Below the pieces are notes generated by a model. That model ran no database searches. It was not told the DNA's origin and worked only from the letters and a program-made list of their open reading frames with translations. Both the position numbers and the translations under genes were made by a program. From Photobacterium indicum (GTDB lineage: Bacteria; Pseudomonadota; Gammaproteobacteria; Enterobacterales; Vibrionaceae), in NCBI RefSeq assembly GCF_003026215.1, contig NZ_PYOC01000003.1, forward strand, positions 62,001 through 126,000: a stretch of 64,000 nucleotides of DNA, written 5' to 3'. The first letter of the stretch is position 1; the number at the start of each line of letters is the position of its first letter. Positions 11,381 to 61,039 of the stretch are shown piece after piece.

Positions 11381-12565
11381 ATGAGAAAATCAGTCATTGT
11401 TACATTGCTTGCAGTTTCAGCTTTTGGTGCAAAAGCCGAGCTTATCCAACACACTGACCAAATTGCTGAGGTTAAATTCACGGGTTCATCTTATGAACTT
11501 GGTAAACATGTTGGTGCTGTTGCCAAAAACCAAGTTCTTGATGCTATCAAACGCTTTGATAGCACATTAGATGTAATGCTTCCTGGTTTAAGCATTTCAA
11601 AACTGTCAACTTCATTTAAAGAAAAGAATGTTTATGGCAAATTGCAAAAAGCATCTCCTGACGCGGCAGCCTATATTGAAGGTTTGGCAGAAAGCCTCGA
11701 CAAAGATCCTGACTTGCTTCTAGCTGTTGGTATGTCAGATGAAGCAATTCTTGAATCTCAGCGCAATGGTGGTATGGGCTTTCTTCAGACTGAGAAAGCC
11801 GGTCATGATCCAAAAGCTCCTGCTAAATGTACTGTAATGGGGGTAAGTGATGGTAAAGGTAAAGCTTGGGGTCAAGCAAACTTTGACTACATGGGTATTA
11901 ATTACAAAGGGTTGATTGTGTTAAATCATACTGACATAGATGGTAAAACACGTGTTATTCAAACCTGGGCAGGCCTAATCCCTTATGGTGGTGTTAGCAA
12001 AGGTGGCCAAGCGATGCTGATGAACACAATGGCCGATGAAGGCACAGCACGACAAAATGCTAATAGTGATATTTTGTCTGAAACGGCTACCCCATCATAC
12101 TACTTGAGCTGGGATGCTTATAATGCTGAAAGCTACCGGGATGTGATCGATATGTATAAAGCATACCCTGAATATACAGCGTTCTTCACTTACACTGTAG
12201 TAGATGCAAACAGAAAAATAATGAACATCGAAAATAATTATGGTGGTGATGTTTCTTACAGCATTTCTAACAAACAAGCTCATGCTAACCACTCAATTTT
12301 CCATTCGAAGGACTTTGTAAACCATGAATTTGCTGCGCACTCTCTTGATCGTCAAAAAGCAGCTGAAAGATTCATTCAATCTGCGACAGTGAATACTACT
12401 AAGGCAGAAACCCAATCTTTTGCAGAGACTAAACCATTATGGAAAGGCCGTGGCGAATTGATGGGTACAGTCACATCAACTCGCTTTGAAGTAGACAAAA
12501 AGAAAGTTGATATGTATATCAAGACAGATGCTGAACATCCAGAAGTTCATATTAAGAATTATTAA
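11381..12565 (+). CDS. Secreted C45-family (acyl-CoA:6-APA acyltransferase-like) Ntn hydrolase
   Basis: This 394-residue protein has a signal peptide (MRKSVIVTLLAVSAFGAKA). The N-terminal part contains YELGKHVGAVAK, typical of the pro-region of the penicillin acyltransferase-like (AAT/C45) family. A CTVMGV motif puts the likely autoproteolytic nucleophile at C150, followed by GKAWGQANFDY, which matches the family's GQNWD-type strand. Such enzymes self-cleave before the Cys and then hydrolyse or transfer amide-linked acyl groups. The substrate is unknown; the export signal suggests a periplasmic amide or N-acyl compound. A terminator follows at 12582-12603. Confidence 0.75.
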   Translation: MRKSVIVTLLAVSAFGAKAELIQHTDQIAEVKFTGSSYELGKHVGAVAKNQVLDAIKRFDSTLDVMLPGLSISKLSTSFKEKNVYGKLQKASPDAAAYIEGLAESLDKDPDLLLAVGMSDEAILESQRNGGMGFLQTEKAGHDPKAPAKCTVMGVSDGKGKAWGQANFDYMGINYKGLIVLNHTDIDGKTRVIQTWAGLIPYGGVSKGGQAMLMNTMADEGTARQNANSDILSETATPSYYLSWDAYNAESYRDVIDMYKAYPEYTAFFTYTVVDANRKIMNIENNYGGDVSYSISNKQAHANHSIFHSKDFVNHEFAAHSLDRQKAAERFIQSATVNTTKAETQSFAETKPLWKGRGELMGTVTSTRFEVDKKKVDMYIKTDAEHPEVHIKNY

Positions 12566-27597: not shown

Positions 27598-28674
27598 CTA
27601 TACATTATCTTGGCTTGCTTTACCTTTCGATTCAGCATCCAATTTTTCATCATAACCGGGTTGATTTTCAGGTAAATCTTTAACATCGTCATACCATAAA
27701 TCGTGGTGTTCTTTCGCCCATGTCTCATCGACTTCACCCGTAATCATGCCATCTAATGCTGCTTCCATACCAAATAAACCAATATAGATATGGAATACAA
27801 AACCACAGATTAAGATCAAAGCAGAGAACATATGCACGAGATTAGATAATTCCATATCGCGGCGTGTTTGACCAAATATAGGGAAATCTAATACAAACCC
27901 ACTTACAGCAATAAAAATACCAAACCAAATCAGCAACCAAAAAATGACCTTTTCGCCACCATTAGAAAATCCAGCGGATGGATGCTTACCTTTATGCTTC
28001 CCCACCATTCCGCCTAGTTTCATGAACCATACTATATCTACTTTGTTAACTATGCTCTTACGCCACCACTTAATTAAAACGGTAAACAATAAGATAGCAA
28101 AGATAGGTCCTATGTAGTTATGGTATTGCTTCGCGGCATAAATAACCCAACCCCATATTTCTGATGGCACAATGGGTTTAATGAAATGCTTACCATAAAC
28201 CAGTGTTAATCCACTGAATGCTAACGTTAAGAACGTAAACGCCATGCTCCAGTGTAAGGCTCGATCCATACGGCTCCAGCGCTTAATTTTACGACCAGTT
28301 TTAGGTTTGCTTAGCTTCAAAGGGCCAATAGTGACGTACGCGAGTGCAACCATTGCAAGGCTACCGAAGATAGCCAATGCGCCTAACGGTGACATCCACT
28401 TTTCTTTCAGAATGTACCACGTCTGCCCAGGAACACTGATCAACACACCATGCTCTGGTGATTTAGATGTTGTTGTCCCTTCTTGACCATTCTTGACCGC
28501 GCGCCAATAGTCAGCACCAGCGAAACCTGCCATTTCACCTTTAATGACAGATTCCCCTAAGCGCTCATTATTTATGTTTTGGCTCGACTCTTCACTGGCT
28601 ATCGCCGACAAAGTAAACGCCAGCATAAATGCAGTAACCAATAAAGTGAACCAACGTTGGATTCGCTTAGTCAT
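27598..28674 (-). CDS. fdhC: Formate dehydrogenase cytochrome b subunit (gamma)
   Basis: This protein of about 358 residues has an N-terminal signal-like helix and a periplasmic stretch, followed by the cytochrome b556 module (RMDRALHWSMAFTFLTLAFSGL, with further His in HNYIGP and HMFSALILICGFVFHIYIG) that ligates hemes b and passes electrons to quinone. It is longer than E. coli FdnI because of the N-terminal part with an extra helix, as in FdhC of Shewanella-type operons. ATG at 28674 is chosen for its aggag site 6 bases upstream. It is the last gene of the operon, 145 bp after fdhB. Confidence 0.92.
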   Translation of the reverse strand: MTKRIQRWFTLLVTAFMLAFTLSAIASEESSQNINNERLGESVIKGEMAGFAGADYWRAVKNGQEGTTTSKSPEHGVLISVPGQTWYILKEKWMSPLGALAIFGSLAMVALAYVTIGPLKLSKPKTGRKIKRWSRMDRALHWSMAFTFLTLAFSGLTLVYGKHFIKPIVPSEIWGWVIYAAKQYHNYIGPIFAILLFTVLIKWWRKSIVNKVDIVWFMKLGGMVGKHKGKHPSAGFSNGGEKVIFWLLIWFGIFIAVSGFVLDFPIFGQTRRDMELSNLVHMFSALILICGFVFHIYIGLFGMEAALDGMITGEVDETWAKEHHDLWYDDVKDLPENQPGYDEKLDAESKGKASQDNV

Positions 28675-28818
28675 TAAAACTCCTAACTGCTTATACAAAA
28701 CAGCGGTAAAAAGAAACCAGTTTTGTGACTACATGCTGATTTCATTATTTTCATATCATCTTTCTACAATGAGTCGCTCGTGTGCGCTTACACACAAACG
28801 AGCGATTCAAATAAGAAA

Positions 28819-29436
28819 TTAGGCTTTTTGTTCTTTACTTGCATCGTATGCAAGATCATCAACATTTGCCCAACCCGCTTCTTTCGCGCCGCGTGCAACT
28901 ACACGCTCACGGAAGACGTCAGAGATTTTAGCAGCATCACCTGCTAACAAGGCTTTTGTTGAACAAAGCGATGCACACATAGGTAGCTTGCCTTCTGCAA
29001 TACGGTTTGCACCGTATTTTTGTTTTTCTTCAATCGAGCCAGGTTCAACACCGGGACCGCCTGCACAGAAAGTACACTTATCCATCTTGCCACGTTCAGC
29101 AAAGGCGTCCTCTTTAGGAAATTGAGGAGCACCAAAAGGACAAGCAAACAAGCAGTAACCACAACCGATGCAAAGGTCTTTATCGTGACGAACAATACCG
29201 TCTTCAGTTTGTTCGAAACAATCAGCAGGACAAACCGCCATACATGGTGCATCTGAGCAATGCATACAAGCGACAGAGATTGACGTTTCGCCGGGTTCAC
29301 CATCATTAAGGGTTACAACGCGTCGACGTTGAATACCCCACTCTAGGGCATCATCGTTCTCGTTCTTACATGCGGTAACACAACCATTGCACTCGATACA
29401 ACGCTTAGAGTCACAAAGAAATTTCATACGTGCCAT
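28819..29436 (-). CDS. fdhB: Formate dehydrogenase iron-sulfur subunit (beta)
   Basis: This 205-residue ferredoxin-type protein carries four Cys clusters (CDSKRCIECNGCVTACK, CMHCSDAPCMAVCP, CIGCGYCLFACPFG, and CTFC...CASLC), enough for four [4Fe-4S] clusters. It relays electrons from the catalytic subunit to the cytochrome b. It lacks the C-terminal membrane anchor helix of E. coli FdnH/FdoH, so it depends on FdhC for membrane contact. It has no signal peptide and would be exported with FdhA by the Tat system. It lies 12 bp after fdhA. Confidence 0.93.
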   Translation of the reverse strand: MARMKFLCDSKRCIECNGCVTACKNENDDALEWGIQRRRVVTLNDGEPGETSISVACMHCSDAPCMAVCPADCFEQTEDGIVRHDKDLCIGCGYCLFACPFGAPQFPKEDAFAERGKMDKCTFCAGGPGVEPGSIEEKQKYGANRIAEGKLPMCASLCSTKALLAGDAAKISDVFRERVVARGAKEAGWANVDDLAYDASKEQKA

Positions 29437-29448
29437 CTGAATGACTCC

Positions 29449-32304
29449 TTACGCTTTAGATATTTTACATAGGGTTACTTTGGTTTCCTGCATTTGTGTT
29501 ACAGGGTCATAACCGTATGTTGTTGCAATGTTCGCTGATTCACCCGACACATACGGTGCAGAGCCTTCAGGGTAATTACCACGAAGATCTTCACCTTCAA
29601 AGTAACCACCAAAGTGGAATGGAAGAAATGCCAAGCCCGGTCTCACACGACGGGTAACCATCGCTTTAACGTGAATACGGCCTTTCTCAGCACCTTCAAC
29701 CCACACCATATCGCCATCGCGGAAACCAAGATCGTTCGCATCTTTAGGGTTAACTTCTACAAACATTTCTTGTTGCAGTTCAGCAAGCCAAGGGTTTGAA
29801 CGGGTTTCATCACCGCCACCTTCGTATTCAACAAGACGACCAGATGTAAGAATCATTGGGTATTCACCCGATACATCTTTATCTTGAATCGACTTATAGA
29901 ATGTAGGTAGACGGAACATTGCCTCACTGTCATTCCACGTAGGATAGTCAGCAACCAAATCACGACGTGGTGTGTACAGCGGCTCACGGTGAATAGGCAC
30001 AGCATCAGGGAAGGTCCATACAACAGCACGCGCTTTTGCATTACCAAAAGGAATACAACCGTGTTTAATCGCAACACGTTGGATACCACCAGAAACATCT
30101 GTTTTCCAGTTTTTACCTTCTGCTTTTGCTTTTTCTGCGTCGGTTAAGTCATCCCACCAACCTAGTTGCTTCAACAGCTTATCGGTAAATTCAGGGAAAC
30201 CACCTTCAAGCTCACAACCTAGTGAATAGCTATCGACTGCCAGCAAGCTTTCCCCTTCACGCTCTACACCAAAGCGTGCACGGAAGTTACCGCCACCTTG
30301 TGCAACAGTTTTCGATGTATCGTAAAGAATATGTGTACCAGGGTGCTTCATTTCTGGCGTACCCCAACATGGCCAAGGAAGACCATAAGTTTCGCCATCA
30401 ACCACACCGCCTTCAGCTTCTAGCGACGTTTTGTGGAAGGTATGCCAGTTTTGTTGGTGTGTTTTAAGACGCTCAGGGCTTTGGCCTGTATAACCAATTG
30501 TCCACATACCCTTGTTATATTCACGGGTTATATCTTCAATAACAGGGATATTGTTTTCAACTTTAATATTCTTAAACAGCTGATCAGATAAACCGAGTTT
30601 TTGCGATAATCTAAACATGATTTCATGATCAGGCTTAGATTCAAATAGCGGTTCAATAACCTGATCACGCCACTGAATAGAACGGTTTGTTGCTGTTACA
30701 GACCCCGTTGTTTCAAACTGTGTCGTTGCTGGTAGCAAATACACGTTATCTGTACGGCCGTTCATTACAGCGGCAACACCTGGGTACGGATCGACGATAA
30801 CCATCATATCCAATTTACCCATTGCGGTACGCATTTCAGGGCCACGGGTTTGTGAGTTTACTGCGTGTCCCCAATAGAACATTGCACGAATATTATCGTT
30901 CTGCTCAATGTTGTCTTTATTTTCAAGCACACCATCGATCCAACGAGAAACAGGGATACCTGCATGGTTCATTGGTTTCTTACCGCGGTAATCAGCTTGA
31001 TCAAAACGGCCTTTTAGCCATTCGTAATCAACATCCCACACGCCTGCCCAGTGTTTCCATGCACCTTCAGAAAGGCCGTAATAACCCGGTAAGTTATCAG
31101 ACAGTACGCCAAAGTCAGTCGCACCTTGAACGTTATCGTGACCACGGAAAATATTAGCACCACCGCCAGATTTACCCATATTGCCTAGAGCAAGCTCAAG
31201 AATACAGTAAGCACGTGTGTTGTTATTACCAGTAGTGTGTTGCGTACCACCCATACACCACACTACACAGCCAGGGCGATTTTCAGATAACAATTTTGCC
31301 GTTTCATAAACATCAGCTTCTGGTACACCAGAAACACGTTCAACTTCTGCTGGTGTCCATTTTGCCACTTCTTTTCGTACGTCTTCCATGCCGTAAACAC
31401 GTTGACGAATAAACTCTTTATCTTCCCAACCGTTTTTAAAGATGTGGTACAACACACCCCAAACGAAAGCAACGTCAGAACCTGGGCGTAAAGAGACATA
31501 GTGATCAGATTTTGCAGCCGTACGAGTACGACGCGGATCGGCAACTACAATCTTACAGCTGTTCTTCTCTTTTGCGATCAAGATGTGCTGCATAGCAACA
31601 GGGTGTGCTTCAGCAGGGTTTGAACCGATAAACAGAATCGACTTACAGTTATGCATGTCGTTCAACGAGTTTGTCATCGCACCGTAGCCCCATGTATTTG
31701 CAACACCGGCTACTGTAGTAGAGTGACAAATACGTGCTTGGTGATCGACATTGTTAGTACCCCACATCGACACCATTTTACGGAATAGATACGCTTGCTC
31801 GTTGTTATGCTTTGCTGAACCTAACCAATAAACAGAATCAGGGCCAGACTCTTCACGAATCTTAAGCACTTGTTTACTGACTTCATCTAATGCTTGTTCC
31901 CAGCTCAGTTTGGTCCACTTGCCGTCGACTAACTTCATTGGGTATTTAAGACGTTTAGCACCATGACCGTGTTCACGCAGTGCTGCACCTTTTGCACAGT
32001 GACCGCCCGCATTGAATGGGTGGTCAAAAGCAGGTTCTTGCCCTGTCCATACCCCTTCCTGTACTTCAGCATAAATACCACAGCCAACAGAACAGTGTGA
32101 ACAAATGGTACGTTTAATTTCAACTGGCGATGTAGGGTCGACAGTCTTCGCTTCTGCTTTTTTCATCATGCCAGGCGCAAACATGCTGGCACCAGCAACA
32201 CCACCAGCGGCAGCAAGTGATGTATTACGAATAAAGGAACGACGAGAAATACCTAATTGGTTTTCGTCCTTGCTTACATTATCGGAACGTTTTGTTAATT
32301 TCAT
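29449..32304 (-). CDS. fdhA: Formate dehydrogenase catalytic subunit (alpha), Tat-exported, Cys-type
   Basis: This 951-residue molybdopterin oxidoreductase has a twin-arginine signal (SRRSFIRNTSL, about 20-50). A [4Fe-4S] binding motif, C68-x2-C71-x3-C75...C103, comes next, then the bis-MGD domains. At the metal-ligand position the motif is ARICHSTTVAG with C193, where E. coli FdnG has selenocysteine, so no Sec machinery is needed. The enzyme oxidises formate in the periplasm. The metal could be molybdenum or tungsten; a tungstate transporter and Mo/W cofactor genes lie further along this window. It is preceded by a small Tat-signal protein, a TorD-type chaperone and a ferredoxin. Confidence 0.95.
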   Translation of the reverse strand: MKLTKRSDNVSKDENQLGISRRSFIRNTSLAAAGGVAGASMFAPGMMKKAEAKTVDPTSPVEIKRTICSHCSVGCGIYAEVQEGVWTGQEPAFDHPFNAGGHCAKGAALREHGHGAKRLKYPMKLVDGKWTKLSWEQALDEVSKQVLKIREESGPDSVYWLGSAKHNNEQAYLFRKMVSMWGTNNVDHQARICHSTTVAGVANTWGYGAMTNSLNDMHNCKSILFIGSNPAEAHPVAMQHILIAKEKNSCKIVVADPRRTRTAAKSDHYVSLRPGSDVAFVWGVLYHIFKNGWEDKEFIRQRVYGMEDVRKEVAKWTPAEVERVSGVPEADVYETAKLLSENRPGCVVWCMGGTQHTTGNNNTRAYCILELALGNMGKSGGGANIFRGHDNVQGATDFGVLSDNLPGYYGLSEGAWKHWAGVWDVDYEWLKGRFDQADYRGKKPMNHAGIPVSRWIDGVLENKDNIEQNDNIRAMFYWGHAVNSQTRGPEMRTAMGKLDMMVIVDPYPGVAAVMNGRTDNVYLLPATTQFETTGSVTATNRSIQWRDQVIEPLFESKPDHEIMFRLSQKLGLSDQLFKNIKVENNIPVIEDITREYNKGMWTIGYTGQSPERLKTHQQNWHTFHKTSLEAEGGVVDGETYGLPWPCWGTPEMKHPGTHILYDTSKTVAQGGGNFRARFGVEREGESLLAVDSYSLGCELEGGFPEFTDKLLKQLGWWDDLTDAEKAKAEGKNWKTDVSGGIQRVAIKHGCIPFGNAKARAVVWTFPDAVPIHREPLYTPRRDLVADYPTWNDSEAMFRLPTFYKSIQDKDVSGEYPMILTSGRLVEYEGGGDETRSNPWLAELQQEMFVEVNPKDANDLGFRDGDMVWVEGAEKGRIHVKAMVTRRVRPGLAFLPFHFGGYFEGEDLRGNYPEGSAPYVSGESANIATTYGYDPVTQMQETKVTLCKISKA

Positions 32305-32618: not shown

Positions 32619-33260
32619 TTAGTTCGCTTCTACAAATCGCGTTTTTTCTACAGTCAAAAATTGCAATGCTAGTTCGCCAACCGCGCTGTAAAACACAGCA
32701 CTTTTAGCGGTTTTAAGATCAGCGCAAAAACGTTCACACCATGTTGCGATATGACGATTAAAGAACCTTGCTTGCAGTGTGTTCTCGCCCTCTTCCACCA
32801 GCATTGCCATCACTTCTAACAAGGCTGCCATATGATCTTCTGGCTCTTTTACTGATTCATCACGTTCAAATTCCAGTTGTTTAAGATCATGACGCAAATG
32901 CGCAAGAGGCATTTCCATTAATGAACCGGTTAAATACCAAGAACCAAAAGGCACAATCTCGCCACGACCAATACCAATAAACAAATCTTGATATTCATCT
33001 TCTGTCGCCATCAAGGTTGTTTTCTGTGCCGCAAGTTTTAGTAATGGCCAAGCCGCTGCCATACCTGTTGTTTGTTTCAATGCATTTGGGGCATCAACAT
33101 CTAATGCCGCTAACCAATCGATCACATTCTGATCGGGTGCTTTACGCAGTAGATGTGCCAACATGCTGTAAATATCAACACGCAACCGAGTATCTTCTGT
33201 TAGCGCTATTGTTTCTGATGTAGACATAGTTTCTGAATTAGACATATTTTGTGATTCCAT
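32619..33260 (-). CDS. TorD-family chaperone for formate dehydrogenase
   Basis: This 213-residue all-helical cytoplasmic protein shows TorD/DmsD family features: LRVDIYSMLAHLLRKAPDQNVIDWL at the start and the motif EDEYQDLFIGIGRGEIVPFGSWYLTGSLMEMPL, followed by EPEDHMAALLEVMAML. Such chaperones bind Tat signal peptides and guard the apoenzyme until the molybdopterin cofactor is inserted. The exact start (33260 or the ATG five codons later) is unsure. It lies between the ferredoxin gene and the Tat-signal protein gene. Confidence 0.9.
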   Translation of the reverse strand: MESQNMSNSETMSTSETIALTEDTRLRVDIYSMLAHLLRKAPDQNVIDWLAALDVDAPNALKQTTGMAAAWPLLKLAAQKTTLMATEDEYQDLFIGIGRGEIVPFGSWYLTGSLMEMPLAHLRHDLKQLEFERDESVKEPEDHMAALLEVMAMLVEEGENTLQARFFNRHIATWCERFCADLKTAKSAVFYSAVGELALQFLTVEKTRFVEAN

Positions 33261-33269
33261 AAATTTGCC

Positions 33270-34970
33270 CTATACCCTTAGCTGACTTTCAGGATCGTCT
33301 TCCATATTTGAGAAAATATCGCGCACACGACAATCTTCACACATGGCTAAACGACGAATCGCATCTCCTTGAAATTGAGAGTGACTCTGTAATTTCTCCG
33401 TCAACATTTTCACCATGGATGCAGGGGCAAACGCTTTACCACAACTTGTACAACAAGCCGCTTCTTCTTCATGAACCACAACAGCGGCTTTACGTGTTTC
33501 AGCATTCCAATTAAAGCCAGGTTTTAACGTAAGAACCTTTTCAGGACATGCCTTTTCACATAAACCACATTGAACACAATCTTCTTCAATAAGTTGTAAT
33601 CCTGGACGACCACCCACAGCATGAAATGCACGTGTAGGACAAACCGCCACACAACTCATACACAATGTGCAATCATCCGTTTTACATTCAACAGAACCAT
33701 AAGGCGCATTGTCAGGCACAGCTGAATATTCAGGTTGCTCTGGGCTATTGGCGTACAGTCGTTCAAGTGCAGCAAACAATTTCTCACGCTTAGTACCAGA
33801 CAATTGTTCTGCAAAAGTTTGAGAATGTGTAAGCGCAATAAGTGGTTTATCAAATGCCGTAAATGAATCAGCCGTAGATAAGTCAAACAGCGCTATTCGA
33901 TTTTCTTCATAACCCAGTTCCGTTAAAAAGTTATTGGCAATCGAAAGTTCATCAGCCAAAACACGATCAATCGTTGCTGGAATATAAGCCGTATTAGTTG
34001 CAAGTAAAACTTGATGCGCACCATAAACCAATGCACTAAACCAAGTATCAACACCAACAGTCGCTAACTCTTCCAACGCAATAGGCACAACATTTGAAGG
34101 AAGTGTCGTCAGTGTTTGAGTAATGGTTTCTTCATCACGGTTACCATAAAAAAGGATCGTTGGTTTTTCTCCCCCTTCTTCTTGATAACGTGCGAGTAAA
34201 CGATGCACAAAATTTTGTGTCTTTTCAGGATCTGGTAATGCATATGTAATCGCTTCAGTAGGACAAGCCGTTGCACATGTTCCCACCCCCTGACAAAGAT
34301 AAGGGTTAATTTCGATAGCATGACCAAGGCTTGATAAGGCACCAGCAGGACATGCATCAACACAACGATTACAACCATTCACACCACGAGATGAGTGCGC
34401 ACAAAGATCAGGGTCTAATCGGAAGTATTTAGGCTTATCAAACGTACCTAACATAGCAGGCAGTTCTTCAGTCACATCGGCCAACTTACCTTTACTTGCA
34501 CCTACTAGGTAATAACCCGGAGCAGGAATTTCAGTTGCCACAATCCCTTCTTCCGTCATGTCTAATACAAGATCAAAACAATCACGACCAATAGCCACTT
34601 TCGCAAGATTGACTTTAGTCTCTGTAATTGTTCCGTCTACGCGACATGTCACTTCAAACGCGCCAAGGTAACCTTTAATGGCAACCTCTTTACTAAAATA
34701 CAAATTTGCACATTTTTCAGCTTTCGTTGATTTTGATGCTTCATCAATCGCCGTCTTTTCTGTAGCAAGAAGCGTTACAGAATGAAGGGCTGAAAATTGG
34801 CTTGCCAGTGTTGTAATCGAACCTTGAGCACCGATGATCAATAAATCACCACGACTCTCATAAGAAACCGTAGGGGGAATCAAATTCGACAATTCTACTG
34901 TGCCTGTAATAGCATTCAGTCGAGCTTGACCATTCGTATCAGAAAATGCTTCTAGTGTACTTTTTAACAT
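33270..34970 (-). CDS. Large multi-cluster ferredoxin of the formate dehydrogenase operon
   Basis: This 566-residue cytoplasmic protein has an N-terminal domain without Cys motifs (about 1-180). Two [4Fe-4S] motifs follow near residues 190-235 (CNRCVDACP, CATACP), then a spacer with a Rossmann-like stretch (KPTILFYGNRDEETI). Two more clusters appear near 425-475 (CTLCMSCVAVCP, CVQCGLCEKACP). The C-terminus has a CCTSCGKAF and a MCEDCR motif, possibly a zinc site. It is related to ferredoxin-like proteins linked to formate dehydrogenases in vibrios and Shewanella. It may pass electrons during maturation or between cytoplasmic partners. It is first in the ferredoxin-to-fdhC operon, behind a sigma54-type promoter. 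Confidence 0.8.
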   Translation of the reverse strand: MLKSTLEAFSDTNGQARLNAITGTVELSNLIPPTVSYESRGDLLIIGAQGSITTLASQFSALHSVTLLATEKTAIDEASKSTKAEKCANLYFSKEVAIKGYLGAFEVTCRVDGTITETKVNLAKVAIGRDCFDLVLDMTEEGIVATEIPAPGYYLVGASKGKLADVTEELPAMLGTFDKPKYFRLDPDLCAHSSRGVNGCNRCVDACPAGALSSLGHAIEINPYLCQGVGTCATACPTEAITYALPDPEKTQNFVHRLLARYQEEGGEKPTILFYGNRDEETITQTLTTLPSNVVPIALEELATVGVDTWFSALVYGAHQVLLATNTAYIPATIDRVLADELSIANNFLTELGYEENRIALFDLSTADSFTAFDKPLIALTHSQTFAEQLSGTKREKLFAALERLYANSPEQPEYSAVPDNAPYGSVECKTDDCTLCMSCVAVCPTRAFHAVGGRPGLQLIEEDCVQCGLCEKACPEKVLTLKPGFNWNAETRKAAVVVHEEEAACCTSCGKAFAPASMVKMLTEKLQSHSQFQGDAIRRLAMCEDCRVRDIFSNMEDDPESQLRV

Positions 34971-35041: not shown

Positions 35042-35061
35042 AAGAGCAATAACCGAACCAA
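35042..35061 (-). promoter_or_regulatory. Sigma54 (-24/-12) promoter of the ferredoxin-fdhABC operon
   Basis: On the minus strand the sequence reads TTGGTTCGGTTATTGCTCTT. It contains the -24 element TTGG (GG at 35058-35059) and the -12 element TTGCT (GC at 35046-35047) with exactly ten bases between GG and GC, as required for RpoN. Transcription would start near 35034, about 64 bp before the ferredoxin start codon. Two copies of a 15-bp near-palindrome lie 79 and 111 bp upstream of the -24 element, the usual place for enhancer-binding protein sites. Confidence 0.72.
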
Positions 35062-35129
35062 CTTTTAACGGAATAAAATGACCTATAAGGAACTAAAGTC
35101 AGAAAGGGACAGTTGGTACAATCTCAACT

Positions 35130-35144
35130 GGGACAATTTGTCTC
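35130..35144. promoter_or_regulatory. Candidate enhancer-binding site UAS1
   Basis: GGGACAATTTGTCTC is a near-perfect palindrome (only the second base from each end fails to pair). Its centre is 32 bp from that of a second copy (35162-35176), about three helical turns. It differs at two positions from GCGACATTTTGTCTC upstream of tupA (59162-59176). The likely ligand is the NtrC-type regulator encoded at 57662-59131. Confidence 0.62.
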
Positions 35145-35161
35145 TGCACTTAAATGCAAAT

Positions 35162-35176
35162 GCGTCAATTTGTCCC
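35162..35176. promoter_or_regulatory. Candidate enhancer-binding site UAS2
   Basis: GCGTCAATTTGTCCC matches UAS1 at 12 of 15 positions. It is placed on the same helix face and lies between the DUF3306 gene end (35240) and the sigma54 promoter. A further half-site, GGGACA, occurs at 35106-35111. The rest of the 269-bp gap 34971-35239 shows nothing else. Confidence 0.55.
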
Positions 35177-35239: not shown

Positions 35240-36037
35240 TTAATTTTTGTTAGCTTCAACACCAACAAGTAAGTCTTCTTCTTTATCTGTCTGAGATAAA
35301 GAGGTAGGGATAGACTCACCGTCGGCTAATTCTTCTGTTGTCTCTTCAGCTATCTCTACTTGTGACAGTTCTTGAGGCAGCTCTTGTGATAATGTGTCAC
35401 CAGTTGTCGCTTCATCAGCCATAGTAAGATTTTCTGCTTCACCTTCTGACGCAGTGCTAGCATCTGTAATAAGATTGGCGTCAGTCAGCTCACCACCAGC
35501 ACTTTCTTTTCCATCATCTAACGCATCTGCTACTTTCTTAATGCTTTCAGATACATTATTCACCCAACCACGCAGTTGTTTTGCTACGTTAGGATCTAGC
35601 GTTGGAATATTCGAGAAATCCTCGGTGTGATCATCCATATCACTGATGTAGTTAAATTCATCAGAGTGAAATAGTTTCTGCAAGGCTGCCTTTTTAACTG
35701 CTTTATCAACACCTTGCTTTAAGAAAGAGGCAACACCACTATCAAACGTGACATCTGCTGCATCTTCTATCGTTAAAATCTTATCTTCAGTAACATCAAT
35801 CAATGATTCAGCTGAGTCTGTTACATCATCTTCACTCGTCCCTGCAAATTCACCGAGTTCAGGTTCAATATATTTTGATTCAAGATCATCCGATGAATCA
35901 TCAATACTGGCAGCCTGTTGCGCTTCAGTACTTGCCGGTATGGTAGATACAGCAGCATCATTGCTAGTTGGCTCTTCATGCTCTTCCTTGGCAGTCAATT
36001 TACGGCTAGACCAACGCTGGAAAAAATTAGTTGCCAC
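35240..36037 (-). CDS. DUF3306 family protein of the formate dehydrogenase cluster
   Basis: This protein of about 265 residues starts with ATNFFQRWSSRKLTAKEE, the conserved N-terminus of DUF3306, followed by a long acidic low-complexity region. A conserved block then appears near the middle (SFLKQGVDKAVKKAALQKLFHSDEFNYISDMDDHTEDF), which is the family core, and an acidic tail follows. GTG at 36037 is chosen because it gives the family N-terminus and has an aaagga site; a longer start at 36082 lies deep in the upstream gene. Function is unknown, but it is found with DUF3305 and formate dehydrogenase genes, so a role in enzyme maturation is likely. The stop is followed by the UAS and promoter of the next operon part. 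Confidence 0.8.
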   Translation of the reverse strand: MATNFFQRWSSRKLTAKEEHEEPTSNDAAVSTIPASTEAQQAASIDDSSDDLESKYIEPELGEFAGTSEDDVTDSAESLIDVTEDKILTIEDAADVTFDSGVASFLKQGVDKAVKKAALQKLFHSDEFNYISDMDDHTEDFSNIPTLDPNVAKQLRGWVNNVSESIKKVADALDDGKESAGGELTDANLITDASTASEGEAENLTMADEATTGDTLSQELPQELSQVEIAEETTEELADGESIPTSLSQTDKEEDLLVGVEANKN

Positions 36038-36509
36038 TAGAACGTCCTTTCTTGTCTTTACAGCGCTTGCGCTTGAATTCAATTAACTCGCCATGGCGCC
36101 CGATGAATGCTTCCATCCACGCCTGTACAGGTAATGGGGTTTTAATGTGTAATACTTGGTAGTCACCGTCCATATAACTACTGGCAACACTTTGCGCAGC
36201 AGTAATTAATAACGGGGATAATTGTTCATTCTCTTCTTCACAAACAATGAATAAGTGCGGGTCTTGAGAGCTAAGGTTAAAGCGATAGTCTGTGCGCTCA
36301 TCACGATAAAGTGTTAGAAGTCGCTCATAACTGCCTTTAGATTCATCAATTTCATACACCCTGTCTTGATCGTAAAGAACAACATCTTCAATCGTCCAAG
36401 ATAGTGTCGTCCAGCGACCTACTTGCTTTTCTTCCGACACTAAGCGAAAGGCAATCGGCCAAATAGATTCATCTTTTTGTAGTAGCTTATGTTCATCGAG
36501 TTGTTGCAC
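36027..36509 (-). CDS. DUF3305 family protein of the formate dehydrogenase cluster
   Basis: This 160-residue soluble protein shows the DUF3305 start WPIAFRLVSEEKQVGRWTTLSWTIEDVVL and the C-terminal motif LPVQAWMEAFIGRHGELIEFKRKRCKDKKG. The start is a GTG at 36509 with an aaggag site 6 bases upstream. It overlaps DUF3306 by about 11 bases, so the two are coupled. Its function is unknown; the conserved pairing with Mo/W formate dehydrogenases suggests an assembly or quality-control role. It is divergent from fdhD, with sigma54-like sites upstream. Confidence 0.82.
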   Translation of the reverse strand: MQQLDEHKLLQKDESIWPIAFRLVSEEKQVGRWTTLSWTIEDVVLYDQDRVYEIDESKGSYERLLTLYRDERTDYRFNLSSQDPHLFIVCEEENEQLSPLLITAAQSVASSYMDGDYQVLHIKTPLPVQAWMEAFIGRHGELIEFKRKRCKDKKGRSSGN

Positions 36510-36567: not shown

Positions 36568-36607
36568 AAGCAATATTTAGACCAAGAAAGGCAATATTTA
36601 GACCAAG
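36568..36607 (-). promoter_or_regulatory. Two tandem sigma54-like promoter elements before DUF3305
   Basis: A 21-bp unit is repeated twice. On the minus strand each copy contains TTGGTCTAAATATTGC, with GG and GC separated by ten bases (plus-strand GC at 36570-36571 with CC at 36582-36583, and GC at 36591-36592 with CC at 36603-36604). The spacing and the TTGG...TTGC bases fit RpoN promoters. Starts would fall about 50-70 bp before the DUF3305 GTG. No copy of the 15-bp UAS was found nearby, so these could also be binding sites of another protein. Confidence 0.5.
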
Positions 36608-36720: not shown

Positions 36721-36737
36721 TTGGAATGAACCTTGCT
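36721..36737 (+). promoter_or_regulatory. Sigma54-like promoter element before fdhD
   Basis: TTGGAATGAACCTTGCT has GG at 36723-36724 and GC at 36735-36736, ten bases apart, with the TTGG and TTGCT contexts of RpoN promoters. The start would lie about 140 bp before fdhD. It points opposite to the tandem sites at 36568-36607. A short dyad, gagga-ggtg-tcctc (36648-36661), lies between them. The rest of the 380-bp gap shows no gene. Confidence 0.48.
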
Positions 36738-36889
36738 TTATCTCTCGCTCTATCTATATTTCAAGTACTAAGCTCTATATAGCATAGTGTTAATGTGAGA
36801 TATGGCGAGTTCAGTATTAAGAAAGCATGATACGTCTAAAATACTGAACCCTTAGAATAAAAACACATATAATCTGTTTACAGACATTG

Positions 36890-37804
36890 ATGAACCAGCA
36901 GGATTTTCTGATGCCCCAATTGCCAAAAATTATAAAAACAAACTCTTCTGTCAGTCAGACAATGACCGTCGACGTGATGGATGAATACGGCGACATGATG
37001 ACCAAAGAAATCGCCTGCGAGCATCCGCTTACCGTTTACTTGAATTGGATTGAAGTTGTTACCTTAATGACATTAGGTGAAAGACCGTCTGTGCTAGTGT
37101 TGGGTTATTTAAAAAACCAAGGATTTATTGATGATATTGAAGCCATTGAATCTGTCATTATTGATTGGGATACCAATTCTGCCGCGGTCATTACTAAAGA
37201 AAACACTGACGGTTTAGAGAAGAAGCTCGGTAAGAAAACCGTTACCTCAGGCTGTGGTCAAGGCACCATGTTCGGTAACGTAATAAAGAAACTAGAAGGT
37301 GTTACACTGCCTCAAATAACATTAGCGCAGTCAACCTTATACGGTTTGCTTGAGTCCCTTACCCACCATAATGAAACCTATAAAGCCGCAGGTGCTGTTC
37401 ATGGATGCGCAGTATGTAAAGACACCAATATTTTATCGTTTGTTGAAGATGTAGGTCGTCATAACGCCGTTGATACCTTAGCTGGTGAGATGTGGTTGAA
37501 AGGTGAAACCGGTGAAGACAAGATTTTCTATACGACTGGTCGTTTGACGTCAGAGATGGTGATCAAAGTCGCGCAAATGGGTATTCCTGTTCTGCTTTCT
37601 CGCTCTGGTGCGACTCAGATGGGCTATGACTTAGCAAAGACGTTGGGCATTACCATGATAGCCCGCGCTAAAGGAAATCGCTTCCAAGTTTATAACGGCA
37701 TGAATAACCTGATTTTAGATGTGAAAGGTGATGCGTCTGGCTTCAACTTAGATGATAAAGCTAAAGGTGCACATAGAGATGAGCGTTCTGGGGGTAAGGC
37801 GTAA
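36890..37804 (+). CDS. fdhD: Formate dehydrogenase accessory sulfurtransferase FdhD
   Basis: This protein of about 304 residues passes sulfur from IscS to the molybdenum or tungsten cofactor, which formate dehydrogenase needs for activity. The family core is visible as VTSGCGQGTMFG, then the active-site CxxC in HGCAVCKDTN (E. coli has CGVC), followed by VEDVGRHNAVDTLAGE, and later TTGRLTSEMVIKVAQMGIPVLLSRSG. ATG at 36890 is listed; ATG at 36911 has a better ribosome-binding site (aggattttctg) and may be the real start. The next gene starts on the last base of the stop codon. Confidence 0.93.
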   Translation: MNQQDFLMPQLPKIIKTNSSVSQTMTVDVMDEYGDMMTKEIACEHPLTVYLNWIEVVTLMTLGERPSVLVLGYLKNQGFIDDIEAIESVIIDWDTNSAAVITKENTDGLEKKLGKKTVTSGCGQGTMFGNVIKKLEGVTLPQITLAQSTLYGLLESLTHHNETYKAAGAVHGCAVCKDTNILSFVEDVGRHNAVDTLAGEMWLKGETGEDKIFYTTGRLTSEMVIKVAQMGIPVLLSRSGATQMGYDLAKTLGITMIARAKGNRFQVYNGMNNLILDVKGDASGFNLDDKAKGAHRDERSGGKA

Positions 37805-38718
37805 TGTCCACTAGCTTTCCAGAGTTTATGAATGCTAAACAAGTTGCTGAATATTTAGATCTGAATGAAAAGAAAGTCTACTCCTTGGCAAACGATGCAT
37901 TGTTACCCGCAACGAAAGTAACGGGTAAATGGCTATTCCCTAAATCAATGCTCGATAAATGGCTATTAGAATCTTGTCATAACGGTGTGCTAAACGATCG
38001 CTTATTAATAGCGGGGTCTGACGATCCTTTATTACAGATGGTGGTAGGGAAAATGGCGAACCAATTAGGCAGTACCGCCTTAGTCGGTTATACCTCGACA
38101 GGTACTCGACAAGGGTTAGCCATGTTAAGTAAAGGGCATGTAGATATATGCGCAATTCATTGGGGGCATGCTGAAGAAGCGGCTTTGCGTCACCCTGCTT
38201 TATTACAACAATATCCGGGTCATAAAAACTGGGTGCTAATACATGCCTTCGAACGCCAACAAGGGTTAGTCGTGAGTCACGACATTGCAGAAGCTGTTAA
38301 CTCACGTTCGTTAAACCCACAAGAATTACTCGCCTCACGTTGGCGTTGGGCGTTACGCCAAGAAGGTGCCGGTAGTATGCGCGCCTTAGAAGAATGGTTA
38401 CATGGTCATGCCTTTAATATCAGTATGCTTACAAAGGCTGATACGTGTAACAGTGAACGTGAACTGGCTTCATATATTGCACGTGGGCTTGCAGATGTGG
38501 GGTGTGCAAGCCAAAGCACAGCTGGTGAATTTGGTTTGGGCTTTATACCTTTATGTAGAGAAGCATTTGAATTAGTAATACCTAAAAACATTTACTTCCG
38601 CACCTTACAACAACAGCTATTGCAATCGTTATCTGACATGGAAATACAAGCCAAGGGTGATCAACTAGGCGGTTATAACTTTGCACGCAGCGGCAAGCAA
38701 GTATGGAGTGCTAACTAA
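37804..38718 (+). CDS. Excisionase-type HTH plus PBP-like domain protein next to fdhD
   Basis: This 304-residue protein begins with an excisionase/MerR-like helix-turn-helix (FMNAKQVAEYLDLNEKKVYSLANDALLPATKVTGKWLFPK, about 8-48). A periplasmic-binding-protein-like domain without a signal peptide follows (about 65-300; SDDPLLQMVV, GYTSTGTRQGLAMLSKGHVDICAIHWG). The second domain resembles the PBP-like module found in some MoeA-type and molybdate regulators. It probably senses a small molecule such as molybdate, tungstate or a cofactor precursor in the cytoplasm and acts as a regulator; this is an inference. It overlaps the fdhD stop by one base (TAATG), so the two are co-expressed. Confidence 0.75.
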   Translation: MSTSFPEFMNAKQVAEYLDLNEKKVYSLANDALLPATKVTGKWLFPKSMLDKWLLESCHNGVLNDRLLIAGSDDPLLQMVVGKMANQLGSTALVGYTSTGTRQGLAMLSKGHVDICAIHWGHAEEAALRHPALLQQYPGHKNWVLIHAFERQQGLVVSHDIAEAVNSRSLNPQELLASRWRWALRQEGAGSMRALEEWLHGHAFNISMLTKADTCNSERELASYIARGLADVGCASQSTAGEFGLGFIPLCREAFELVIPKNIYFRTLQQQLLQSLSDMEIQAKGDQLGGYNFARSGKQVWSAN

Positions 38719-55619: not shown

Positions 55620-57665
55620 TTAATTAGCTTCAACATCTAACATTAGATCATTAGTCGATGTCGCTTTCTCTCGTAAATATATAGAGAAGGTTGAACCTTT
55701 ACCTAATTCAGATTGCACTTCAATTTCACCGCCGATTTCGCTAATAATACCTTGGCTAACAGACAGTCCTAATCCTGTTCCACTTCTACGCGTCGTAAAA
55801 AATGGATTAAAGATTCTCTTAAGGTTTTCCTTACTGATACCGCAGCCATGATCGGTAACACGCACCACAGCCCCTAATACTTTTCCACTTTGATCAATCC
55901 AATCTTCTGTTTTGACTTTCAATAAGCCTTTGTCGTCCATTGCATGAACGCCATTCATTTGTAGATTAATTAATACTTGTAAGAGTTGGTGTCGATTCGC
56001 TTCAATGCAACACTTAGCATCTAGCTGAGCTTCAACCTTCACATCATAAGACTTGGTACCAGAACGTACTAAAGTTAAGCTTTCTTCAACAATGAGATTG
56101 ACATGATGCCACGTAATTTCATCTTGTACGCCACCTTGACGGCTATACTGCAAAAGGCTTCGAGTAATATTTCGGATCCGGTCTATTTGCTCATGAATCG
56201 CATCTAACTCTTCTTTAACGCGCAAAGTATCATCACCGAGTTCCAGTTGTAACAATTCAACGTTGCCTAAAATAACAGCTGTCGGGTTATTAATTTCATG
56301 CGCTATTCCCGCCGTTAACTCACCGAGTGCTGCCAGTTTTTCACTTGCCACCAGCTTGATTTTCGCCTGATTCAACAATTTGATATGTTGCTCTAGCTCT
56401 TCTGTTTTTTCATGCAAGCTACGGGTTCGAATTTGCACTTTATCTTCAAGTTCAAGAGATGCTTTTTTAATGTCTTCATTACGTTGATGAAGCTGATCAA
56501 GCATTGAATCAAACTGTAGGCCAAGAATCTGTAACTCGTGGTTTTTAAACAGATCTAAGGAGCCAATACGGCGATCAAGTCCAACTTGCACCGCCTTGAC
56601 TACGTTATGAATTTTTTCAATTGGACGGAATAAATCACGCGCACCACGATAAACAACCACACCAGAAAGTAATAGAACAATTACAATACCAATACCTAAC
56701 TCAATAATATTGGTTAAAAACGTTTTTAATAACGGCCACTCAAGGTAACCCGTATACAGCATGCCTATCACATTGCCATCATGATCATGTAGTGGCTCGT
56801 AGGAAGAAACGTACCAGTCATCGTAAACAAACGCCCGCCCTACCCAGTTCTCCCCCGCAAGCAGTACTTGCTGTTTTACTTCATCAGAAACTCGCGTACC
56901 AATTGCACGACCATAACGCGCTTCACTATCAAGCGGTACATTCGTACTAACACGAAGATCATCCATAAACAGCGTAACCGTGCCAATACTTCCTGCAGGC
57001 AATGTATCTGCGGCGTAAACCAAATCACGAATGCGATCAACAAGTAAGGTACTGTTATTTAAAAGTATACCGCCATCAACAATCCATTGAAGCTGATTTT
57101 TCTCATTAAAAATTGGAATGAGACTACGGCTAATTAAGCCTCTTGACTCAAATTCACTTTCATTTATTAAAGGTATTTCTGCATTTGCAGGAAGATTAGG
57201 GTTAAGGTTTTCTAATGCTTGCCCATCCAATACTTGAAAGAACGTTTGCTCTTTGCCCTTCAGTAATAATCGACGATTTACTTTTGAAAATTCACCTAAT
57301 GCAGAAGCGGGATGCAGTACAACAAAATCCAACTCATAATTTGACGTTTGAGTACTTACCCAATCACTTAACTTTGCTTCATCGGTTCGTAATAATGTCT
57401 GAAAATCATAAGACGATGACAACGACATTAAGCGCATTCGTTGTTCTTTTTGCAGCAACTCCATACTATGGTGTGCGACAGCGAGATCGGCTCTTACATT
57501 CATCAATGCACTTTGCCATGTATAAGTCACAGTCCAATACATAGTCAATGCAATCAAGGCAAGCAATGTAATGATAATGGGTACAGATGTAAGCACCAAT
57601 AAACGATAACGCACCATCGTTCTAAATCGGCGTACCCACTTCAGCACTAGGTGTTTTAAATTCAT
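55620..57665 (-). CDS. Cache-domain sensor histidine kinase
   Basis: This 681-residue kinase has an N-terminal membrane helix (about 23-45) and a large periplasmic Cache-type sensor domain (GLISRSLIPIFNEKNQLQWIVDGG; NWVGRAFVYDDWYVSSYEPLHDHDGNVIGMLYTGY). A second helix, a HAMP domain and a coiled coil follow. The HisKA motif GIAHEINNP puts the phosphorylated His at about residue 456. The ATPase domain shows NLQMNGVHAM (N box), DHGCGISKE (G1) and GTGLGLSVS (G2). It pairs with the sigma54 regulator encoded upstream (4-base overlap). The stimulus is unknown; context suggests formate or metal status. Confidence 0.92.
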   Translation of the reverse strand: MNLKHLVLKWVRRFRTMVRYRLLVLTSVPIIITLLALIALTMYWTVTYTWQSALMNVRADLAVAHHSMELLQKEQRMRLMSLSSSYDFQTLLRTDEAKLSDWVSTQTSNYELDFVVLHPASALGEFSKVNRRLLLKGKEQTFFQVLDGQALENLNPNLPANAEIPLINESEFESRGLISRSLIPIFNEKNQLQWIVDGGILLNNSTLLVDRIRDLVYAADTLPAGSIGTVTLFMDDLRVSTNVPLDSEARYGRAIGTRVSDEVKQQVLLAGENWVGRAFVYDDWYVSSYEPLHDHDGNVIGMLYTGYLEWPLLKTFLTNIIELGIGIVIVLLLSGVVVYRGARDLFRPIEKIHNVVKAVQVGLDRRIGSLDLFKNHELQILGLQFDSMLDQLHQRNEDIKKASLELEDKVQIRTRSLHEKTEELEQHIKLLNQAKIKLVASEKLAALGELTAGIAHEINNPTAVILGNVELLQLELGDDTLRVKEELDAIHEQIDRIRNITRSLLQYSRQGGVQDEITWHHVNLIVEESLTLVRSGTKSYDVKVEAQLDAKCCIEANRHQLLQVLINLQMNGVHAMDDKGLLKVKTEDWIDQSGKVLGAVVRVTDHGCGISKENLKRIFNPFFTTRRSGTGLGLSVSQGIISEIGGEIEVQSELGKGSTFSIYLREKATSTNDLMLDVEAN

Positions 57666-59131
57666 AAGACTTCTTCGTCAATCCATTCTTTATATTTACG
57701 TTCCAATGTCTTACGCGCAACACCAAGCTGACGAGCAGCGGCTGATTTATTCCCTTCATGCGAATCAACAACCTGCATGATATGCGCTTTTTCAACCTCT
57801 TTTAATGTCCAATTGGTTGGATAACAGAATTGGTCTCCTTCTACGTCATAAATTGAGGAGCAACGGCAATCACTGCTTACATTTTTAACGACTTCACCAT
57901 TGATATCATCAGATGTTGTATTTGCAGCCCTTGGCAGAGGATTACTATCACCTTGTAGATCTCGCCAGTATTCTGCTGGCGGCTTACCCAGTAAAATACA
58001 ACGTTCCATCATATTACGAAGCTCTCGAATATTTCCGGGCCAGTCATACGCTTGCATGGCTTTAATATCTTCATGCGTCCAGTTAATGGTCTTCATGCCT
58101 AAATCTTTGGCTAGCTGCTGGGTAAAATGATGGGTCAGAGAAGGAATATCTTCCACTCTATCCCGCAAGGCGGGTAAATCGACCGTTAATACGTTTAATC
58201 GATAATATAAATCGCGACGGAAGCGCCCTTCGTCTACTTCCTCTTTCAAATTTCGGTTGGTAGCCGCGATGATCCTTACATCGACTTGCACCTCACGCTC
58301 TGCACCTACAGGTCGAATCGCTTTTTGCTCTAAGGCGCGTAATAAAGACGATTGCATTGAAAGGGGCATTTCACCAATTTCATCAAGGAAAAGCGTTCCC
58401 CCATTCGCCACACGGAATAAACCTTCTCGCCCTTTTTTGGCACCAGTAAAAGCCCCTGAAACATGGCCAAACAACTCACTTTCTAATAAATCAGGTGCTA
58501 TCGCACCACAATTTAGCGGTAGAAAAGGACCCGTTCGTTTACTTAATTGATGTAATGCACGTGCCACTAATTCCTTCCCCGTACCAGATTCACCTTCGAC
58601 GAGAACAGCTGCAATAGAGGGAGCAACCTGTGCGATCAATTTCTTCATCTGTTGGGTTTTTACCGCGTCACCAATAATATCTACGGGGAATGTACGTTCA
58701 ACATCTCGCTGAAGAGCAAAATTTTGTCGCTCTACTAGGCGACGTTCAATACAACGGCTAACGGATTGCATCATTTGTTCTAAATTGAATGGCTTCAAAA
58801 TAAAATCAGAGGCACCGGCACGTAGCGCTTTAATCGCGGTATCTAAATCGGCATACCCCGTCATGAAGATCACATCACTGCGGCGGGTTGATGGGTCCAA
58901 AGCCTCGTGCCACTCAATGCCTGAGCGTCCGGGTAAATTAATATCTACAATTAGTAAATCGAAATGACAGCGTTTACGGAGTTCTTCTGCTTCTTCAATA
59001 CTGCCAGCGGTATCGACTTGAGCAAATTTTTTACTTAATGCTTTTTTTAAAATAGCACGCATACCCGGTTCATCATCAACAACCAGTACAGATACGGCAG
59101 CCCAAGAGAGAGAAGAAGAAAATTCAGACAT
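57662..59131 (-). CDS. Sigma54-dependent NtrC-type response regulator
   Basis: This 489-residue protein has a receiver domain (D19-D20, phosphorylation site D63 in LLIVDINLPG). A sigma54-activating AAA+ domain follows with Walker A GESGTGKE (180-187) and the GAFTGA loop (226-231) that contacts sigma54. A C-terminal Fis-type helix-turn-helix (NKSAAARQLGVARKTLERKYKEW) comes last. Phosphorylated by the adjacent kinase, it would bind enhancer sites and activate -24/-12 promoters. A 15-bp palindrome at 59162-59176 upstream of its own gene and of tupA recurs twice before the formate dehydrogenase operon, so these are likely targets. Confidence 0.95.
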   Translation of the reverse strand: MSEFSSSLSWAAVSVLVVDDEPGMRAILKKALSKKFAQVDTAGSIEEAEELRKRCHFDLLIVDINLPGRSGIEWHEALDPSTRRSDVIFMTGYADLDTAIKALRAGASDFILKPFNLEQMMQSVSRCIERRLVERQNFALQRDVERTFPVDIIGDAVKTQQMKKLIAQVAPSIAAVLVEGESGTGKELVARALHQLSKRTGPFLPLNCGAIAPDLLESELFGHVSGAFTGAKKGREGLFRVANGGTLFLDEIGEMPLSMQSSLLRALEQKAIRPVGAEREVQVDVRIIAATNRNLKEEVDEGRFRRDLYYRLNVLTVDLPALRDRVEDIPSLTHHFTQQLAKDLGMKTINWTHEDIKAMQAYDWPGNIRELRNMMERCILLGKPPAEYWRDLQGDSNPLPRAANTTSDDINGEVVKNVSSDCRCSSIYDVEGDQFCYPTNWTLKEVEKAHIMQVVDSHEGNKSAAARQLGVARKTLERKYKEWIDEEVL

Positions 59132-59161: not shown

Positions 59162-59176
59162 GCGACATTTTGTCTC
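59162..59176. promoter_or_regulatory. Candidate enhancer-binding site UAS3 (shared by tupA and the regulator gene)
   Basis: GCGACATTTTGTCTC differs at two positions from UAS1 (35130-35144) upstream of the formate dehydrogenase operon. It is 31 bp before the regulator start codon on one side and 137 bp upstream of the -24 element of the tupA promoter on the other. It could serve activation of tupA and autoregulation. Confidence 0.6.
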
Positions 59177-59303: not shown

Positions 59304-59320
59304 TTGGCATCTGATTTGCT
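59304..59320 (+). promoter_or_regulatory. Sigma54 (-24/-12) promoter of tupABC-mobA-mobB/moeA
   Basis: TTGGCATCTGATTTGCT has GG at 59306-59307 and GC at 59318-59319 with ten bases between them. It also has the favoured TTGGCA and TTGC contexts, so it is the best RpoN match in the window. Transcription would begin near 59331, about 90 bp before tupA. UAS3 lies upstream. Confidence 0.72.
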
Positions 59321-60273: not shown

Positions 60274-60322
60274 AAGTGTTATCTCTTACTAAACACATTG
60301 AAACGGAAAAAACGTAAATATA

Positions 60323-61024: not shown

Positions 61025-61039
61025 GTTGAGGAACAGGTG

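Follow-up and report, generated by a model that had tools for sequence, protein, structure and literature searches.

The window, the whole stretch of 64,000 nucleotides from Photobacterium indicum that was analysed, carries a formate dehydrogenase operon on its minus strand. The first gene of the operon (33270-34970) encodes a 566-aa protein with several 4Fe-4S ferredoxin domains, and the following genes encode a chaperone of the nitrate reductase delta / TorD type (32619-33260; PF02613), the molybdopterin oxidoreductase catalytic subunit FdhA (29449-32304), the 4Fe-4S subunit FdhB (28819-29436) and the cytochrome b561-type subunit FdhC (27598-28698). On the other side of the operon promoter, the genes for a DUF3306 protein (35240-36082; PF11748) and a DUF3305 protein (36027-36509; PF11749) are located on the minus strand, and the gene for an FdhD/NarQ family protein (36887-37804; PF02634) is on the plus strand. 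The fdhD gene is adjoined by a gene for an HTH_17 + PBP_like protein (37804-38718), possibly a metal-oxyanion sensor, a relative of which was present in 6 of 20 fetched clusters.

A response regulator (57662-59131) and its partner histidine kinase (55620-57665) are also encoded on the minus strand, and the kinase gene overlaps the end of the regulator gene. The regulator contains a receiver domain (PF00072), a sigma54-interaction AAA+ domain (PF00158) and a Fis-type HTH domain (PF02954), i.e., the domain set of the NtrC-type enhancer-binding proteins, and the GAFTGA loop motif, which is typical of sigma54 activators, is visible in its translation. Its best named match was a protein of Photobacterium frigidiphilum with 97% identity (very near relatives may be left out of this comparison), and its recognition-helix region hardly changes between Photobacterium and Aeromonas, with a similar region in Rhizobium. 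The kinase was assigned an sCache_3 sensor by Pfam. On the plus strand, ABC transporter genes (tupA-like, 59422-60273; tupB-like, 60323-61024; tupC-like, 61037-61750) and a mobA-like gene (61737-62321) together occupy 59422-62321. The first of these reached 225.3 bits with the TupA equivalog model, below the cut-off of 400 bits, and therefore the transporter is called only tungstate-type here.

The promoter of the formate dehydrogenase operon

An earlier note on this DNA had proposed a sigma54 promoter with paired enhancer palindromes in front of the operon, and the positions given there proved correct to the base. The sigma54 (-24/-12) box, TTGGTTCGGTTATTGCT, is an exact match at 35045-35061 on the minus strand, and has the GG-N10-GC spacing with the flanking pyrimidine-T and T-T. 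The two upstream 15-mers, both putative regulator sites, are the promoter-proximal GGGACAATTTGTCTC (35130-35144, centre 35137) and the distal GCGTCAATTTGTCCC (35162-35176, centre 35169). The centre-to-centre distance is 32 bp, and the -24 GG lies about 79 and 111 bp downstream of the two centres, respectively. Both are imperfect palindromes, in which 12/14 and 10/14 positions, respectively, are self-complementary.

A symmetrised matrix was built from 97 unique sites of fdh promoters, and reads T-G-N-G-A-C-A-(A/T)3-T-G-T-C-N-C-A. It was trained on the same promoters as those tested, and the earlier patterns were drawn from the window and the first relatives. The top five places in the window scored 24.7, 22.6, 17.8, 17.0 and 15.2 bits, with the next at 6.1 bits and the best of eight Markov controls at 14.3 bits. 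The score of 24.7 bits belongs to GGGACAATTTGTCTC and is not independent, since this site is within the training set, and that of 17.0 bits belongs to GCGTCAATTTGTCCC; the tup and moeA places described below are outside the training set. Counting of loose matches within the window was discarded as evidence, because neither the 15-mer with up to 3 mismatches (15 matches versus 14.7 expected) nor the loose box (37 versus 36.1) exceeded the shuffles. It is through conservation, and not through match counts in the window, that the 15-mer and the box rise above chance. In the 5.9 Mb source genome, exact GNGACAWWWTGTCNC was found at three places, namely fdh, tup and the interior of a Na+/H+ antiporter gene, and the last (C33:22947) was set aside. 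The one-mismatch pattern had 17 places genome-wide versus 32 for the reversed control, and thus was not over-represented; five of the 17 fall within this window, and one (C23:18171), inside an ORF, was set aside.

Conservation and joint loss in the Vibrionaceae

Both 15-mers, 32 bp apart, were found in all of the first 30 Photobacterium promoters (the window's own counted in), and in 29 of them the box was located exactly 83 and 115 bp from the 15-mers, start to start. The exception (L023, from the regulator-bearing genome G133) keeps the palindromes and lacks the box stretch, which is missing between short repeats some 40-70 bp ahead of the first operon gene, either by a true deletion or by an assembly fault. 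In other Vibrionaceae the array consists of two or three sites, some of them weak, and in some Vibrio it is displaced as a block by about 11 bp, or about one helical turn (from 84/118/145 to 95/129/156). The site-to-box distances peak at 83-84, 94-95, 105-107 and 115 bp. Helical phasing of the sites relative to the box is at most suggestive, as the vector strength is nearly equal over periods from 10 to 11.5.

A survey of 247 Vibrionaceae genomes, with thresholds of E 1e-60 for the first operon gene and E 1e-150 for the regulator, detected the former in 184 and the latter in 176 genomes. Both genes were present in 172, the first gene alone in 12, the regulator alone in 4 and neither in 59 (counts uncorrected for descent). 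The promoters of 158 of the 184 first-gene genomes were examined and 26 were left out; L060, which duplicates L097, was dropped. Of the 148 regulator-bearing promoters, 147 had a sigma54 box with a matrix site 60-180 bp upstream of it; none of the 10 regulator-less ones did. The 148 include two genomes (G084 and G013) in which a looser search detected regulator fragments only, and in the ten regulator-less genomes the best matches of this search were NtrC-family proteins with 37-41% identity. A box within one mismatch was present in 147/148 regulator-bearing promoters versus 1/10 regulator-less ones, and this single box (L106) is a one-mismatch look-alike without a site. The rpoN gene was kept in all ten regulator-less genomes. 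On the first-gene tree, the regulator-less state requires three changes, at least two of which are forced by well-supported branches; the third (G011) is a long branch placed beside Shewanella.

These results show that relatives having the operon keep the palindromic sites and the -24/-12 box in all but one case where the regulator is present, and the lack of conservation that the earlier note had named as evidence against its promoter was not observed. The box and the palindromes almost certainly constitute a real regulatory unit. The putative sites, through their conservation and co-loss, also supply the upstream enhancer sites that characterize NtrC-type proteins. The same note had suggested the regulator at 57662-59131 as the activator, and this gains support from the co-occurrence and co-loss; the protein is very probably the activator of the fdh operon.

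The joint absence extends to the neighbouring genes. The ten regulator-less genomes had no site before tup, and their gap between DUF3305 and fdhD was free of boxes in both orientations. In all ten (L404-L413), a tupA relative was located directly behind fdhD in the same direction, unlike the order in the window, and therefore the tup site and the regulator may have been removed by one deletion. For this reason the loss of the tup site is not independent evidence, and the sites of the first-gene promoter, located on the other side, are the stronger evidence. Six box look-alikes before tup in these genomes were rejected, because they lie inside fdhD.

Fur-box-like sequences (14-15/19 identical) were observed upstream of the first gene in L097, L098 and L104-L107. 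They were present in 6/10 regulator-less and 15/148 regulator-bearing promoters and in 10/500 shuffles, a mild enrichment, which possibly reflects a switch to iron control. Two genomes with the regulator and without a first-gene match (G087 and G200) keep DUF3305, DUF3306 and sigma54 boxes, and G200 also keeps fdx-type sites; a contig end may have truncated their first gene. No fdhD match was found in G169 and G218. One Photobacterium genome (G022; L403, L347) had neither the regulator nor the first gene above the threshold. Its tup site is gone, its tup box is kept with one mismatch and the site inside moeA is kept, which looks like recent decay.

Further predicted sigma54 units and the palindrome inside mobB-moeA

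The palindrome GCGACATTTTGTCTC (59162-59176; 22.6 bits), a putative regulator site, is located between the regulator gene and the tup operon, and is followed by a sigma54 box, TTGGCATCTGATTTGCT, at 59304-59320 on the plus strand. This palindrome and box before tup were found beside the regulator in 29 of 30 Photobacterium loci, the 30th being cut by a contig end, and in 6/6 further loci from regulator-bearing Vibrionaceae whose stretch included tupA.

Back-to-back sigma54 boxes were detected between DUF3305 and fdhD. The box toward DUF3305-DUF3306, TTGGTCTAAATATTGCT, at 36569-36585 on the minus strand, is duplicated in tandem: a near-identical copy, with C as the last base, occupies 36590-36606 on the same strand, 21 bp apart. 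The box toward fdhD, TTGGAATGAACCTTGCT, is at 36721-36737 on the plus strand. The DUF3305-ward box was present in 41/41 regulator-bearing genomes, in one case on a second stretch, and in 0/10 regulator-less genomes. The fdhD-ward box was present in 35/41 and 0/10, respectively, where two of the 35 were read from a second stretch and one (L059) is a doubtful one-mismatch match; it was absent in G185 and in five genomes of one genus. No strong palindrome was found near these boxes, with no matrix place above 8 bits in the gap. A search for hidden palindromes near fdhD and DUF3305 allowed up to 4 mismatches, and 4/19 non-Photobacterium regulator-bearing loci (L058, L063, L064 and L066) had a 3-mismatch palindrome near the DUF3305 start; L065 had a matrix place of 15.7 bits inside DUF3305. 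The nearest strong palindromes in the window are those of the fdh array, 1.4-1.6 kb away. According to the available text of a review, NtrC-type enhancers moved to a distance of at least 1 kb remain functional, and those at 6 kb work less well (PMC7408454), which makes it plausible that the fdh enhancer could act at a distance on the fdhD and DUF3305 promoters. The regulon seems to contain at least four sigma54 transcription units.

The remaining strong matrix places are inside the mobB-moeA fusion gene, where the palindrome GGGTCAAATTGTCTC (62992-63006; 17.8 bits), a putative regulator site, is accompanied by a second, weaker palindrome (63009-63023; 15.2 bits), 17 bp apart. The place at 62992-63006 scored above 8 bits, and was often near-perfect, in 29 of the 30 best-matching loci from the 40 Photobacterium genomes with mobB-moeA; the other 10 genomes, less similar, gave no locus. 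The locus without the site (L371) is the least similar of the 30. Synonymous variation was compared with that of the other conserved codons of the same residue in the stretch, omitting the near-copies L343-L345. The Gln, Ile, Val and Ala codons at the site varied least (0/8, 0/13, 0/14 and 0/15 as low, respectively), and the Gly and Leu codons were unremarkable (3/14 and 6/16 as low). The site is the six-codon window with the lowest synonymous variation (27 rows; descent not modelled). No shared sigma54 box was found within 1.5 kb of the site in 27 loci, where seven boxes occurred in six loci and shared places only among near-copies; downstream of the site, 17 loci had scattered boxes, none shared beyond near-copies. 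The site inside moeA was absent in the checked loci of Enterovibrio, Vibrio, Aeromonas, Shewanella, Thiothrix and Sedimenticola.

The DUF3305 and fdhD promoters are conserved and co-lost with the regulator, yet have no strong site of their own. We tentatively suggest, as a possibility that may well turn out otherwise, that the fdh cluster (35130-35176) could loop to three sigma54 promoters and that, in Photobacterium, a second enhancer within the mobB-moeA coding sequence could serve tup, constraining the codons there. The distances would be about 100 bp to the cluster's own promoter and 1.4-1.6 kb to the DUF3305 and fdhD promoters, with the moeA site 3.7 kb downstream of the tup box. If this is true, it would be a natural long-range, coding-embedded bacterial enhancer network. 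Siteless dependent promoters and a coding-embedded site are unusual for two-component sigma54 activators, and the siteless fdhD/DUF3305 promoters and the codon-constrained moeA site make long-range enhancer action directly testable.

Of 80 loci of regulator relatives, 17 were scanned for palindrome-box pairs by a strict rule, and the pair was found in nine and absent in eight. Outside the Vibrionaceae, it precedes tup in Aeromonas salmonicida and Shewanella frigidimarina, and in a Sedimenticola MAG a perfect palindrome and a box precede relatives of DUF3305 and of the first gene. In Rhizobium terricola and an Agrobacterium (regulator 44-45% identical), the regulator and kinase genes adjoin a formate-dehydrogenase-like gene and fdhD. 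Both loci (L225 and L226) carry, at the same place around 12370-12480, a box and two palindromes spaced by 22 bp; in Rhizobium these precede an MFS gene, and in Agrobacterium the box has one mismatch. The Rhizobium MFS protein is a distant match to the lactate and oxalate/formate transporter models. The motif GGACA-(A/T)3-TGTCC occurs once per genome in Rhizobium and Agrobacterium, at the pair adjacent to the regulator and kinase. No palindrome-box pair was found in the distant relatives L227, L228 and L230-L232, and GGACANNNTGTCC outnumbered its reversed control in only three of six named genomes.

Predicted signal, alternative explanations and known systems

A structural model of the kinase's sensor region (mean pLDDT 87.4), based on 31 aligned sequences with its own among them, was compared with known structures by realignment of Foldseek's best 1000 chains. 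The best realigned match was 8py0_A, a formate-bound receptor domain (Z 15.5, rmsd 2.1 Å, 149/155 residues), followed by 8py1_B, also a formate complex (Z 14.9, rmsd 2.2 Å); the other listed structures had Z of at most 14.1 and rmsd of at least 3.6 Å. In Foldseek's own ranking, an integrative McpB-McpC model was first and 8py0_A second. LuxQ, DctB and amino-acid receptors scored Z 11-13.5, and the Cache fold therefore does not fix the ligand. By profile search, 8py0 and 8py1 were the only PDB sequences below E 0.01 (profile E 5e-4), with LuxQ next at 0.073. Candidate ligand-contact residues, among them R238, R253, Y285 and Y289, are common to the sensor and the formate-bound receptors in the alignments, as judged by eye. 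On this model and profile evidence, formate is the probable signal of the kinase. The predicted ligand, the enzyme and the regulon agree with each other, and the fold is no proof of the ligand.

Looping to sigma54 promoters and opening of them is the general mechanism of this activator family. We consider it quite likely that a formate-sensing two-component system activates a regulon for formate dehydrogenase, its cofactor and tungstate. Formate outside the inner membrane would bind the sCache_3 domain of the kinase (55620-57665), as the structural and sequence similarity suggests, and the kinase would phosphorylate the regulator (57662-59131), as suggested by their adjacency and domains. The regulator would then bind the GNGACA-(A/T)3-TGTCNC palindromes, to which the co-occurrence and co-loss point, loop to the RNA polymerase-sigma54 at the -24/-12 boxes and open them. 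The ferredoxin-chaperone-fdhABC operon, DUF3305-DUF3306, fdhD, and the tungstate-type transporter with the mob/moe cofactor genes would thereby be switched on jointly. The apparent regulon of at least four units, the coding-internal site and the formate-receptor-like sensor of the kinase go beyond what the earlier note had proposed.

We take VC1519 to be the fdhD gene of V. cholerae, and, from their position, VC1521/VC1522 of V. cholerae and VP1502 of V. parahaemolyticus to be the counterparts in this system. As far as the available text of the sources goes, VP1510-VP1515 decreased by 3.2 to 4.8 log2 in an rpoN mutant of V. parahaemolyticus by RNA-seq, purified RpoN alone gave no EMSA shift of the VP1510 promoter, with the authors calling the control indirect, and an RpoN ChIP result on the V. 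cholerae operon is quoted (PMC9817140). The RpoN dependence of the Vibrio fdh operon is thus already published. The V. cholerae genes VC1511-VC1518 and VC1523-VC1524 are jointly increased in a ribD mutant, and the changed-gene table, in the part available, passes from VC1518 to VC1523 without VC1519-VC1522 (PMC5816637). VC1522 is divergent from VC1523 (PMC6855506), and is a list entry in the available parts of PMC4441509 and PMC6855506; VP1502 is listed as an unnamed sigma54 regulator in that of PMC10469919. In the search listings of open-licence papers we found no function or binding site for VC1521/VC1522 and VP1502, and no published activator, binding site, palindrome or formate two-component system.

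Alternatively, the sigma54 promoter could be real with the 15-mers owned by a general activator, such as NtrC, FlrC or another. NtrC-family proteins were found in 12/12 loosely searched genomes, some 23 kb separate the regulator gene from the operon in the window, and of 20 relatives for which 11-13 kb around the first gene were fetched, 8 had the regulator gene within this stretch and 12 did not, one of which lacks it. However, the ten regulator-less genomes keep NtrC-family proteins and rpoN, yet have neither the site-box pair nor the boxes between DUF3305 and fdhD, and the palindrome adjoins the regulator's own gene in 29/30 Photobacterium loci, so that a general activator is improbable. 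Still harder to credit is the explanation of the 15-mers as targets of a separate repressor or nucleoid protein, with the box a chance look-alike. It would fit the loose matches in the window, which are no commoner than in shuffles, but the box and the sites are kept together at set distances and are missing together, and the operon is rpoN-dependent in V. parahaemolyticus, according to the part of the report available (PMC9817140).

The signal is a separate question, and the two-component system might sense molybdate or tungstate supply, redox state or another small carboxylate. The promoter beside the regulator drives the tungstate-type transporter, Cache domains bind many ligands, and the Rhizobium MFS protein matched the lactate-transporter model best, below the cut-off. 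In V. cholerae, the operon genes respond to riboflavin supply, and three of them appear in the list of the iron regulon, as stated in the accessible text of PMC5816637. Against these stand the formate complexes as the two best realigned relatives of the sensor, at 2.1-2.2 Å versus at least 3.6 Å for the others listed, and the four shared residues, and we regard a signal other than formate as rather unlikely. With formate as the predicted signal, an activator, a binding site and a signal are now proposed for a two-component regulator that 176 of the 247 Vibrionaceae genomes encode, and one formate-responsive regulon would tie together the enzyme, the cofactor genes and the metal-type transporter. 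The absence of the regulator and the sites in separate lineages is a natural experiment in regulatory rewiring.

The proposed system resembles NtrC-glnA, in which, according to the available text of the review, a sigma54 promoter has paired sites for a receiver-AAA+-HTH activator about 90-140 bp upstream, with presumed looping (PMC7408454). It differs in that the regulator scored below the NtrC cut-offs (399 versus 558.6 bits for TIGR01818, and 336.9 versus 620 bits), and in having a membrane-bound Cache-sensor kinase as partner. Its palindrome also differs from the NtrC site. As with FhlA of E. coli, formate-related genes would be switched on via sigma54. FhlA, however, is a one-component protein with its own sensory domains, whereas here a receiver domain is combined with a separate kinase, and the regulator reached 243.6 bits with the FhlA model against a cut-off of 830 bits. 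The formate-bound sCache chemoreceptors (8py0 and 8py1) are the best realigned fold and profile match of the kinase sensor; those proteins are chemoreceptors, whereas the sensor region of the protein described here, a histidine kinase, is larger.
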